A stretch of DNA of 64,000 nt from Clostridiales bacterium. GTDB taxonomy: Bacteria > Bacillota > Clostridia > Oscillospirales > CAG-272. Under the pieces are notes generated by a model, which was not told where the DNA came from, did not search any database, and saw only the letters and a list, made by a program, of their open reading frames with translations. Below are positions 1 to 5,535 of the stretch, in pieces. The translations under genes were made by a program, and so were the position numbers. Location of the stretch: the NCBI GenBank assembly GCA_012514145.1, contig JAAZAV010000010.1, forward strand, positions 1-64,000, written 5' to 3'. Every line of letters begins with the position of its first letter. Position 1 is the first letter of the stretch.

Positions 1-983
1 ATATAATTGAAGTGGCAAACAGAAGAATTATTAGTCGTATATGTAAATTAAAATCAAATTCTAAAATATTTTTATTTCATTTTAACAACATTGATAAATG
101 GTTTAGACAAGATGTTATAAGTGACCTGAGCTTAATTCGGCAGGCTATTTGCGCCGAACCGAATAAAAAAACGCGTAGGTATTTTTGGCTTTGCTTTGGG
201 GAAATAGTTAAAAAATATAGCAATACAAGGACTTCAACATTTAAGCTCCATATAAAAGAAAAACACAAAATTCTTGAAATGAAGAATAATGTTATTGACG
301 ATTTTATTGATAAAATATCAACAACGTATAGCCTGATTGGAATAAAAAAGAAAGCGCCTTTTCACTTGGACTGTGGTGATTCATTAGAAATAATGAAAAA
401 TTACCCGCCCGGTTCTTTCGACATTATATGTACATCCCCTCCTTATGGAGAGAATGCGACAACAGTAACTTATGGACAATTTTCTACATTGCAGCTTTTG
501 TGGATAGATAGCAGCGATTTCGGATATAGCAAAGATTTTTATAAAAACTATTCTAAAATTGACTCCATAAGCTTGGGCGGTTCAAAATCAAACAATAGCG
601 CTTTTTATTTCTCCCCTAAAGTCTCGGCATATATATCGCAACTTTCAGAACACAAACGAAAAAAGATTGTCCGTTTCTATTCTGACTATGAAAATGCTTT
701 TCGACTTATGGCGCGGTTGTTAAAACCAAATGGAAGTATGATTCTTACTCTTGGTAATAGAATGGTTGATCGAACTGAATTTCCATTTGTCGAAATAAAT
801 AAAGAACTTGCAAATCATTATGGGCTATCTATTGTCAGTGCAATTAATAGAAATATAATAAAAAAAAGAATGCCTTATCGTGTATCCAGATTAGCAGACG
901 GAAAGCCTGTTGAATCAATTTCAAAAGAAACAGTGTTGTTGTTTATTAAAGGAGGAGCATCCAATGCCGGAAGTAATAGCTAA
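1..983 (+). CDS. DNA methyltransferase (N4-cytosine/N6-adenine), 5' truncated by the window
   Basis: Modifies DNA using S-adenosylmethionine; probably the modification half of a restriction or defence locus. The visible frame contains the catalytic motif TSPPYGEN followed by TTVTYGQFS, typical of the N4mC/N6mA family. The TSPPY form favours N4-cytosine, but adenine is possible. The helical segment before it (WFRQDVISDLSLIR, then NTR and FKLH) is a usual spacer in this family. The AdoMet-binding FxGxG motif is not in the visible part. A GTG at base 12 is the first possible start, but it has no ribosome-binding site and the frame is open to the window edge, so I infer a 5' truncation. It overlaps the next gene by 20 bases, implying translational coupling. 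Base composition is AT-rich, unlike the genome downstream. Confidence 0.85.
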   Translation, partial: IIEVANRRIISRICKLKSNSKIFLFHFNNIDKWFRQDVISDLSLIRQAICAEPNKKTRRYFWLCFGEIVKKYSNTRTSTFKLHIKEKHKILEMKNNVIDDFIDKISTTYSLIGIKKKAPFHLDCGDSLEIMKNYPPGSFDIICTSPPYGENATTVTYGQFSTLQLLWIDSSDFGYSKDFYKNYSKIDSISLGGSKSNNSAFYFSPKVSAYISQLSEHKRKKIVRFYSDYENAFRLMARLLKPNGSMILTLGNRMVDRTEFPFVEINKELANHYGLSIVSAINRNIIKKRMPYRVSRLADGKPVESISKETVLLFIKGGASNAGSNS

Positions 984-3255
984 TATCCAGCAAGGAAAAT
1001 ATGAAGACGTTCTAGCTGCTGTACAAAGTCCAGTAATTACACTTACAGAACTAATAAAAAATGCTTCAGATTCCTGCCAAAACAATGAGGACCCCATTAT
1101 AGTTAAAATAGATACGACTCACCGTGTGATTACTATTACCGATTTTGGGAGAGGATTTTCAAAAGATGATTTAGATCATTTGGGCGAGGCAGGATATTCT
1201 TCAAAGATGATAGGAGACAATACACAATCTCCTATTGGCAATCCTTTAGCAGGAAGTAAGGGACTTGGACTACTTACAGCTTTTTTTATCTCAAATGTTT
1301 TAGAAATCGAAACATATTCTGAAGCTGATAGGAAGTCGTATTTTTTAGAGTGGAAAAAAGGAGCCCAACGGTATAGATATGAAGAAATTGAAAGCGAATC
1401 AGTCGGAACCGTTATAACATTGAAAGATGTTATTCCTGAGAAACTCCAAATGATTTTACTTCCAGAAGAAAAAGTGAAACTATTTATGGCGTCACTTCGC
1501 TTTTTTACGAACGACACCAATCTACCTCAAATTAAATTAATTATTGATGGAGTAGAAGAATCATTTTACCCACAAGAAACATTAGACGACTATTATTCTC
1601 GCAATAAGGGTTCTTCTAGTGGATTTATTGCAAAGGCTATTTTTAAATATACAGACAACAAAATTACGCTATCATATGAAGATAATATTTCTCATTTTTA
1701 TACTTTTTCCGATCAAGTAATTGATCTATCTGACATGGATAGTATTGAAGCTTTTGCAAGAGCAATTAAGGCACCTGAAAAAGGTGTAGCACCAATTAAA
1801 TCAATTTGCGAGTCTGACGTTTTTAAGCCAGATTATTTACCTATTCGACTACCAGCCTTTTCTGGGATTCTTTATACATGGAGACATAGAAAAAACGATG
1901 ACTTAGAACAATGGCCAGTCGGCGTAAGAATCTATATCAATAATTACAGCTTATATAGATATCTCGATAAAGAAAATGATTGGCTGAATTTATCCGAAGT
2001 TAGCCAGAATGTCAAGGCTACAAACTACAAGCTAAAGAATACATATGGGTTTTTAGACTTAACGGATTACAACGAAAATGAGGGAGACTTAAAAATATCA
2101 AAAGAACGAGATGACTTTGTGGATTCAATGGCAAAAAGGAAGTTCATTCATATAATGCGGGATGTAATTATAGGCGCTTTTACCCGAATTGATATGGCAA
2201 TTAAAAATCCTCCCGTGCAATCATTTTCATTGCGATTTTCCAATCCGACAGTCCGTTTGGGTGATAAGTTCGATTTAAGCGCAGCCATAATTTGCAGCAA
2301 CATTGGACTTGATGATATTGATTTAGAGTATGATGAAAACCAGCTTTCTATAAACGAAGATTTGTCTATATCCGCTACAAAACAAGGGGCATATGAAGTA
2401 AAGCTTTCTTATGGCGAGATAATGTATACTTTAGTTATTCATTTTAAGAATATAATTCCTGAATTTGATTTATCTAAAAGTTCCATTACCGTTTATAAAG
2501 GCAACTCATTTAATTTGAGAGATTATATTGTTGCAGAAAGTTGCAAAGATGTCACACCTGAAAGCATTGAAATAGTACCAGCACAAAAAGATACAATAAT
2601 AATAAATAACGATATTTTTGACAAAAGCAATGTCGCTGGCTCACATATTGTTTACTTCCGGTACGGAGAGTTTCAACGTACATTAGACATAAGTGTAAAG
2701 GAAATTGAGCGACAACCTGGAGCTGGTGCAAAATCACCTAGAATCAGCACGCTTTTTCCAAATTTGAATCTCTTGCGTAACTATTCAATTAAATTATCAG
2801 AATTGGTTGATGCAATCTCATCGTATTATGTCCAAGCTCCAACCCTTTGCATGGCTGCTATTCGCATATTGCTTGAATCCTCAGCAAAAGCGTTTCTCAA
2901 GGCAATGCATGATGAAGAAATTAATGATAGTTTTCAAAGTGTTGTCAATCGTGTACTCAACCTTCGTGATTGTCATGAAAAAAACCAAGATTATAAAAAA
3001 TGCTTCGATGTGAAAGGGCCTGATTTTATGGCTAGATTTAAAGAAATTTCAGATAGCTATGAGACTCGTCTTTCAAAAGATGTAAAAACTAATATCAATA
3101 CACATATCAAACAAATTGAACTTGATATGTTTGTTCATAATCCGGATATAATTGCAACCGCTGCGACAGTGTATAGATCCATGCAAATTTTCTCGCCATT
3201 GCTAAATTATATTTTTGACGTGTTGATTAATGTTTATGCCGTTATTACCACTTAG
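964..3255 (+). CDS. GHKL (MORC/MutL-like) ATPase with Ig-like repeats and a helical C-terminal domain
   Basis: A 763-residue ATPase of the GHKL fold (Hsp90/MutL/histidine-kinase superfamily). The N-box is E29-x3-N33-x2-D36, the G1 motif is D60-F-G-R-G64, and the G2 motif is GSKGLG at 97-102; a GT pair follows at 148-149. A beta-rich transducer-like part follows. Residues about 420-496 and 500-580 look like two Ig-like beta-sandwich repeats, and 590-763 is alpha-helical. ATG 964 is chosen because AAAGGAGG lies just upstream; an in-frame ATG at 910 lacks a site. It overlaps the methyltransferase. GHKL ATPases beside DNA methyltransferases are a described class of restriction-type loci (the prokaryotic MORC/MutL-like group), so a role in phage defence is inferred. 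No nuclease motif is visible. Confidence 0.8.
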   Translation: MPEVIANIQQGKYEDVLAAVQSPVITLTELIKNASDSCQNNEDPIIVKIDTTHRVITITDFGRGFSKDDLDHLGEAGYSSKMIGDNTQSPIGNPLAGSKGLGLLTAFFISNVLEIETYSEADRKSYFLEWKKGAQRYRYEEIESESVGTVITLKDVIPEKLQMILLPEEKVKLFMASLRFFTNDTNLPQIKLIIDGVEESFYPQETLDDYYSRNKGSSSGFIAKAIFKYTDNKITLSYEDNISHFYTFSDQVIDLSDMDSIEAFARAIKAPEKGVAPIKSICESDVFKPDYLPIRLPAFSGILYTWRHRKNDDLEQWPVGVRIYINNYSLYRYLDKENDWLNLSEVSQNVKATNYKLKNTYGFLDLTDYNENEGDLKISKERDDFVDSMAKRKFIHIMRDVIIGAFTRIDMAIKNPPVQSFSLRFSNPTVRLGDKFDLSAAIICSNIGLDDIDLEYDENQLSINEDLSISATKQGAYEVKLSYGEIMYTLVIHFKNIIPEFDLSKSSITVYKGNSFNLRDYIVAESCKDVTPESIEIVPAQKDTIIINNDIFDKSNVAGSHIVYFRYGEFQRTLDISVKEIERQPGAGAKSPRISTLFPNLNLLRNYSIKLSELVDAISSYYVQAPTLCMAAIRILLESSAKAFLKAMHDEEINDSFQSVVNRVLNLRDCHEKNQDYKKCFDVKGPDFMARFKEISDSYETRLSKDVKTNINTHIKQIELDMFVHNPDIIATAATVYRSMQIFSPLLNYIFDVLINVYAVITT

Positions 3256-3598: not shown

Positions 3599-4261
3599 TT
3601 ATTCTGGCAACTCAAATTTAATCTTATATCCCTGTTCTACTATAACATCGTTATTTACTAGTTTTTCTATGATGGCTTTTGCATTTTCTAGCGATTTATC
3701 TAATATACCATGTTTTATCGCGCGCTCTTCCATAGCTTTTTTATTGAGGTCATCAAAATTTCTAACGTCTTCAACTTTAACGCGATTAAATAGACCGTCT
3801 TTTTCGTCTAATGTTTCTATTGTGCTTGTATCTATCTCATGAGAAAGAATTTCGGCTTTGGGTAATTTTATAATTATTTCTTTGTTTAAATCACTTGAAC
3901 TGACTATTATTTTGTCAATTATTACACCAGCCTTAATAGTGCCGTCCCATTTTGCGATAAATGATTTAGTTGTAAGTGGTATGTTTTTGCCAAATATTTT
4001 CTTGGGATCTTCAAACTTTCCTGAATTTGTATATAAATATTCAATTGTTGCAAGTTCTCCGATGTCTTTGATTTCTGCCTTAATTATATTGATAACAATT
4101 TCCGGTGTTAGTTCTTCATCAAACACAATAGGCTTATTTTGCTTATTTTGCTTATTTAGAATATCCGGATAAATCTTTAATAAAGCTATTGTTCCGATTA
4201 TAATAATAAGAATAACTAACAATAATGTATTTAGCTTTGACCTACTTTCTTTGGTTTTCAT
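3599..4261 (-). CDS. DUF4230 membrane-anchored protein
   Basis: A 220-residue protein with one N-terminal membrane segment (residues about 12-30, LLLVILIIIIGTIALL) and an outside domain matching DUF4230: a YEYLYT-like strand, IPLTTKSFIAKWDGTIKAG, IIIKLPKAEILSHEID and the closing EDVRNFDD helix region. The biochemical function of the family is unknown. AAAGGA lies upstream of ATG 4261, and a TATAAT box sits at 4338-4343 (minus strand). The gene is AT-rich and belongs to the accessory patch. It points away from the GHKL gene, and nothing links it to the defence pair except position. Confidence 0.75.
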   Translation of the reverse strand: MKTKESRSKLNTLLLVILIIIIGTIALLKIYPDILNKQNKQNKPIVFDEELTPEIVINIIKAEIKDIGELATIEYLYTNSGKFEDPKKIFGKNIPLTTKSFIAKWDGTIKAGVIIDKIIVSSSDLNKEIIIKLPKAEILSHEIDTSTIETLDEKDGLFNRVKVEDVRNFDDLNKKAMEERAIKHGILDKSLENAKAIIEKLVNNDVIVEQGYKIKFELPE

Positions 4262-5198: not shown

Positions 5199-5453
5199 TT
5201 AAAAAACCTTTCCATAGTCATCATAGTCACCACTACAAGCAAAACAAAGAACTGAAAGTGGATTGGAAGTAATATCTAACAGGCGTGCAGGAAGACCATA
5301 GTGTTGCATTTTTATTAATTTTTCGCTTCTGTAGATAATAGGTTTAAGCTTATAATTAACATTTTAATATCCTCGAAAGAAAAGTTCAGTTTTGTCTGGG
5401 CGTGGTACTTTTTTGAGTTCAGTAACAAAGTCTGAAATACTTTTTGTTGACAT
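5199..5453 (-). pseudogene. Decayed FRG-domain gene
   Basis: From ATG 5453 the minus strand reads MSTKSISDFVTELKK and ends the first block in FFRGY, immediately before a TAA. The same frame continues NVNYKLKPIIYRSEKL and then KMQHYGLPARLLDITSNP, the hallmark FRG-domain core, before stopping at 5199-5201 after 85 codons. FRG domains are normally about 100 residues inside 200-300-residue proteins and occur often in defence islands. Here the first FRG motif meets a nonsense codon, the stretch between EKL and KMQHYG is deleted, and the C-terminus is gone. Clearly a remnant. Confidence 0.7.
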
Positions 5454-5535
5454 GTTAATTTCCCCTTTTGTTTTCAAGGATTTTGATTTCTTAGGATATA
5501 ATAATCTTTAACTTGAATCCGCTTTTATCTTCGGT

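Follow-up and report, generated by a model that had tools for sequence, protein, structure and literature searches.

The first two genes of the window (the whole stretch of DNA analysed here, 64,000 nucleotides long) form, with a probability of about 0.6, a self-contained and horizontally mobile defence system in which modification is combined with an ATP-gated effector, a hybrid of restriction-modification (R-M) and abortive infection of the predicted GHKL-HEPN type. That the pair is an anti-phage system of this predicted kind is very probable.

A methyltransferase-ATPase pair at mobile loci

The window comes from a MAG of 2.82 Mb in 69 contigs, and its base 1 is the extreme end of contig C2. 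An open frame at positions 3-983 of the forward strand (326 aa) runs off this 5' end, carries TSPPYGEN and encodes a DNA methyltransferase of the N6/N4 aminomethyltransferase fold. It aligns with positions 142-440 of the 446 in the PADLOC model MTase_II (E 1.5e-46), indicating that the N-terminus is missing, and its motif IV region, DIICTSPPYG (421-453, same strand), is invariant in the aligned members of the long subfamily described below. The second frame (964-3255, same strand) encodes a GHKL ATPase and putative effector of 763 aa; its ATG at 964 is preceded by a ribosome-binding site, AAAGGAGGAG, at 949-958, and the two genes overlap by 20 bases (964-983), as the initial annotation had described.

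Alignment of the methyltransferase with complete relatives begins at about their residue 101, and the window copy has lost roughly the first 105 residues and, with them, motif I, which reads DPFHGSG in relatives; a search of the rest of the MAG for this missing part, run without a positive control, found none. The initial annotation had rightly seen that the 5' end was lost, while attributing this to the window, and had placed a missing nuclease or specificity gene upstream. The truncation is due to the end of the contig and not to the choice of window, and no upstream gene is conserved in the relatives, leaving the approximately 105 methyltransferase codons as the only loss.

We collected nine relatives, mostly through the ATPase: five at 59-70% identity, two from viral contigs and two divergent ones from genome searches. 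They come from a variety of Firmicutes, from mobile elements and from one phage contig. In all nine, a complete methyltransferase of about 414-421 aa, counted from the homologous start, lies directly upstream of the ATPase, with a junction that is an overlap of 8 or 4 bases or a gap of 1-2 or a few bases. That nine other loci carry this pair in this order argues against a chance pairing. No third conserved gene was found on either side of the pair across the nine relatives, and the flanking genes differ at every locus on both sides; since the neighbours differ every time, the functional unit, as read from these loci, is two genes starting with the methyltransferase.

The ATPases fall into a long subfamily of 757-770 aa (the window, L004-L008 and L043/L045), in which two Ig-like repeats separate the S5 domain from the C-terminal one, and a short subfamily of 612-643 aa (L032, L044 and L050), in which a variable low-complexity linker replaces these repeats. 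Pairwise identities of the two proteins are correlated (r 0.96 overall and 0.84 within the long subfamily, from pairs that are not independent and a small number of homologues). In the phylogenetic tree, the methyltransferases of both subfamilies form one clade (support 100/99), which lies apart from methyltransferases paired with MvaI/BcnI enzymes and from those paired with other GHKL proteins. M.MvaI and M.BcnI produce N4-methylcytosine, and by analogy with these relatives N4-methylcytosine is probably the product here as well.

Several features of the loci bear on mobility. In the first 5 kb, GC content is 33-35%, compared with mostly 50-60% further along the contig. Neighbours of the relatives include a resolvase, relaxases, a phage integrase, ArdC and three serine recombinases, as well as an EcoO109I R-M system, a YhcG nuclease, an InlB-type surface protein and plasmid mobilisation genes, and one relative lies on a phage-like contig. 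A survey of the phylum found the system in 3 of 398 genomes, these being the MAG studied here, a second genome with a full member and a third with only a C-terminal remnant; in one family already holding known members it was found in 3 of 397, two of the three having been found previously. Searches of plasmids and phages gave no significant match along the full length of the ATPase. Rarity, mobile neighbours and low GC fit, though they do not prove, a horizontally spreading defence module.

Further observations were made around these loci. Directly 3' of the window pair, a DUF4230 protein (E 9.5e-26; 3599-4261, minus strand) is transcribed towards it. At the border of the low-GC stretch that holds the pair lies a frameshifted remnant of an FRG-domain gene (5202-5507, minus strand; PF08867, E 3.8e-9 for 5202-5363); FRG genes are frequent in defence islands. 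In Blautia glucerasea (L005, 4769-8004), a C5-methyltransferase and an EcoO109I-type R-M system stand immediately 5' of the pair. Locus L030 (G191:C4) carries at 1510-1617 an orphan remnant, the last 35-39 or so residues of a long-subfamily ATPase, nearly identical to the L004 C-terminus and thus a decayed copy of the system.

Domain architecture of the ATPase

A profile search, on which the initial annotation had staked its GHKL assignment, matched the ATPase to HATPase_c_3 in Pfam (E 1.2e-8, exceeding the curated cut-off), and Foldseek and VIA searches with the ATPase model retrieved the ATPase modules of HSP90, MutL and SMCHD1. The N box (E29/N33/D36), the G1 box (D60-x-G62-x-G64) and the G2 box (G97-x-K99-G100-x-G102), all three reported as complete at the outset, are invariant in six of six aligned sequences. 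With a Bergerat fold and all three boxes present, the protein is a member of the GHKL ATPase superfamily. The GHKL and S5/middle domains cover residues 1-417 approximately (964-2214, plus strand), and VIA aligned model residues 15-417, of mixed model confidence, with the N and M domains of HSP90 (Z 15-16). Two tandem Ig-like repeats follow at about residues 418-580 (2215-2703, plus strand); the Big_3 match is below the cut-off in the window ATPase (E 0.0025) and covers two stretches in the closest relative, L004 (E 1.2e-7). Residues 592-763 (2737-3252, plus strand) are modelled as an all-helical domain. The ATPase is a paraMORC-like GHKL and S5 protein with Ig-like repeats and a helical C-terminal domain.

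The locus had initially been called a restriction or defence locus of MORC/MutL type. The GHKL-methyltransferase pairing and its R-M or defence-type mobile setting held up, considering the nine relatives, their common methyltransferase clade and the low GC; the MORC and MutL identities were dropped. The MORC S5 motif GhXhhpXXRhl has no match anywhere in the ATPase (in GVRIYINNYSL, residues 320-330, the ninth position is not R), and the MutL equivalog of NCBIfam reaches 22.7 bits when 391 are needed. Signatures of individual paraMORC types were also sought. The ExxxH of the paraMORC2 S5 domain is absent throughout the ATPase; the RE-fold nuclease of paraMORC3 or Shedu type (DUF4263) has no Pfam match, the C-terminal domain being modelled as all-helical; and the TIR domain of paraMORC4 was found neither in the ATPase by Pfam nor by name among the subset of neighbours scanned. 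More generally, no nuclease domain was matched by Pfam in the window ATPase or its relatives, and no DNase domain was recognisable, results that apply to the libraries searched.

Two of the three short-subfamily ATPases (L032, 5465-7384, and L044, 5959-7797) have NDYKG instead of DxGxG in the G1 box, which L050 retains. Because these two boxes are degenerate, ATP hydrolysis may be dispensable in some members.

The C-terminal domain and its nearest known relations

Modelled alone, the C-terminal domain reached a pLDDT of 85.7 and a pTM of 0.85. The top VIA match was the sacsin HEPN structure 3o10 (Z 9.1, rmsd 2.7 A over 114 residues of helical bundle), a Z of 9 being inside the range for which VIA warns about helical bundles. 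The structures at ranks 1, 3, 5 and 6 carry HEPN or HEPN toxin in their names, and we take those at ranks 2, 4, 9 and 11 to belong to the HEPN superfamily as well. These matches of the model suggest that the domain is HEPN-like by fold. Foldseek with the same model found nothing significant among PDB and viral models, and searches of Pfam and of PDB sequences with the domain returned nothing. The Rx4-6H RNase motif of catalytic HEPN members is absent from the whole ATPase, while R43, E47 and H134 (domain numbering) are invariant in 10 sequences. HEPN domains that lack the motif probably serve to bind RNA (PMC3710099), and the HEPN-like domain here may bind RNA rather than cut it.

The nearest described kind is the fusion of paraMORCs with Ymh HEPN domains. 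MORCs and paraMORC1-5 in R-M loci were defined by Iyer et al. 2008 (PMC2292703), and Anantharaman et al. 2013 (PMC3710099) reported the Ymh fusions, also from R-M loci, and predicted that these act in the manner of PrrC/RloC. The window pair shares with them the GHKL and S5 N-terminus, a helical C-terminus that aligns with HEPN and an adjoining methyltransferase, but differs in having no Ymh match, no Rx4-6H, no helicase or REase and, in its long subfamily, Ig-like repeats. In eight genomes, the Ymh HEPN model (PF09509) left the pair unmatched even when E values as high as 10 were allowed, under conditions in which control genomes were matched only below the cut-off.

The second relation is to PD-lambda-5, which protects against phages (Vassallo et al. 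2022, PMC9519451); it contains a methyltransferase, and its authors, who assayed it in an mrr-deleted host, describe it as R-M plus Abi in compacted form (PMC9519451). The C-termini of the short subfamily match PD-lambda-5_A in PADLOC (E 1.8e-11), and hhalign of a six-sequence PD-lambda-5_A profile against them gave P 5.8e-6 and a score of 41.4, compared with a maximum of 17.6 in 40 column shuffles. These profile comparisons demonstrate homology between the C-terminal domain of the short subfamily and the C-terminus of PD-lambda-5 protein A. A survey with the short-subfamily C-terminal profile recovered its own member alone. The window C-terminus scored 19.5 in hhalign against the PD-lambda-5 profile directly, and 24.2 over 17 columns against a combined sister and PD profile (null maximum 20.5). 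As the window subfamily barely reaches PD-lambda-5 by sequence, its link is indirect and runs through the short sister subfamily.

Both systems consist of two genes with a DNA methyltransferase, but the N-terminus of PD-lambda-5 protein A is ParB-like by eye (no useful Pfam match; one partial homologue annotated ParB-like), whereas that of the window ATPase is GHKL. In the PD-lambda-5 loci read, protein A is paired with a D12 adenine methyltransferase located 3' of it; the window methyltransferase matches MTase_II, not D12, and stands 5' of the ATPase. At L062 (4940-8463), the protein A gene is in pieces, with transposase-like genes within and around it, and the frame of the D12-type methyltransferase beside it is still open.

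Other systems share single parts. VcSduA, a GHKL-nuclease protein of paraMORC3 type, is a proven defence protein whose ATPase is required (PMC12137116); it has the same order of N-terminal GHKL ATPase and C-terminal effector, but its effector is a DUF4263 PD-(D/E)xK nuclease and it was tested as a single protein, whereas the window system is a pair with a methyltransferase. R-M systems of MvaI/BcnI type have related methyltransferases (about 25-31% identical in the plasmid members compared), which belong to another clade and are partnered by a small DNA-cutting REase instead of a GHKL ATPase. Hymenobacter and Rhizobium plasmids carry a related methyltransferase directly 5' of a GHKL protein, but at the C-terminus of this ATPase a second HATPase domain, resembling that of histidine kinases, takes the place of the HEPN-like one. 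These double-HATPase proteins (L035, 3905-7807, and L040, 3842-9275; in Rhizobium a third ORF of about 500 aa follows) are HEF_HK-like by resemblance (cf. PMC8011034), with no Pfam HEF_HK match listed.

Proposed function and alternatives

By analogy with the family, the methyltransferase would mark a specific sequence in the host DNA. The GHKL-S5 ATPase, which is probably dimeric, would clamp upon ATP binding as HSP90, MutL and SMCHD1 do, and would load on or sense DNA that is unmarked or otherwise foreign. In what is the weakest step, this ATP-driven closure would switch on the HEPN-like domain, which might then bind or cut RNA and so arrest either the infected cell or the phage, or relay a signal, with an outcome that would resemble abortive infection more than classical DNA cutting. 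The main weakness of the mechanism is that the HEPN-like domain is non-canonical. A more far-reaching version, which we put forward tentatively and consider rather doubtful, is that of a distinct two-gene class, where the methyltransferase licenses DNA, the HSP90-like ATPase switches on a HEPN-like domain that is non-canonical and relies on an alternative R/E/H site, and the C-terminal domain is an effector or docking module common to otherwise unrelated methyltransferase-paired systems of GHKL type and PD-lambda-5 type.

The GHKL protein might instead itself cut DNA through an unrecognised nuclease site, in a Type II-like R-M system resembling enzymes of the BbrUII/HgiDII family. The NCBIfam equivalog of that family does match the ATPase, PADLOC REase_II matches a sister protein (1.9e-7), and true REases (MvaI/BcnI) partner related methyltransferases. 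We nevertheless regard this as unlikely, since the matches are confined to the shared GHKL domain (28.9 bits for the equivalog, against a cut-off of 550) and the ATPases combine the lack of a Pfam nuclease domain with a helical C-terminus. The same lack of a recognised nuclease, together with a HEPN-like domain devoid of the RNase motif, the probable RNA-binding role of such domains and the S5/middle clamp architecture, would agree with a BREX-like barrier that is not nucleolytic, in which incoming DNA without the modification would be clamped by the ATPase and kept from replicating, with the C-terminal domain serving for dimerisation or nucleic-acid binding; given the degenerate G1 boxes of two sister ATPases, we judge this quite improbable.

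A housekeeping or DNA-repair pair of the MutL or HtpG family, with no role in defence, is very hard to reconcile with the data. The HtpG and MutL models do rank among the best curated matches, but they match the ATPase domain only and far under their cut-offs (34.5 bits of the 371 needed for the NCBIfam HtpG model), the same genome encodes a separate HtpG (601 bits), and the patchy, mobile distribution and the strict pairing with a methyltransferase also speak against it.

In conclusion, the hybrid of modification and ATP-gated effector remains our preferred reading. What is new is the two-gene GHKL-methyltransferase version, which is not listed in current catalogues, of a kind already predicted in 2013. 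The copy of PADLOC searched (2023) has no model of the whole ATPase, so that annotation with this copy would miss the system. The C-terminal domain in common ties the GHKL-methyltransferase family to PD-lambda-5, and a result on either would inform the other. The compact, intact pairs of Dorea sp. D27 and Blautia glucerasea offer a model in which to study the action of GHKL ATPases in restriction, which has been in question since the paraMORC predictions.
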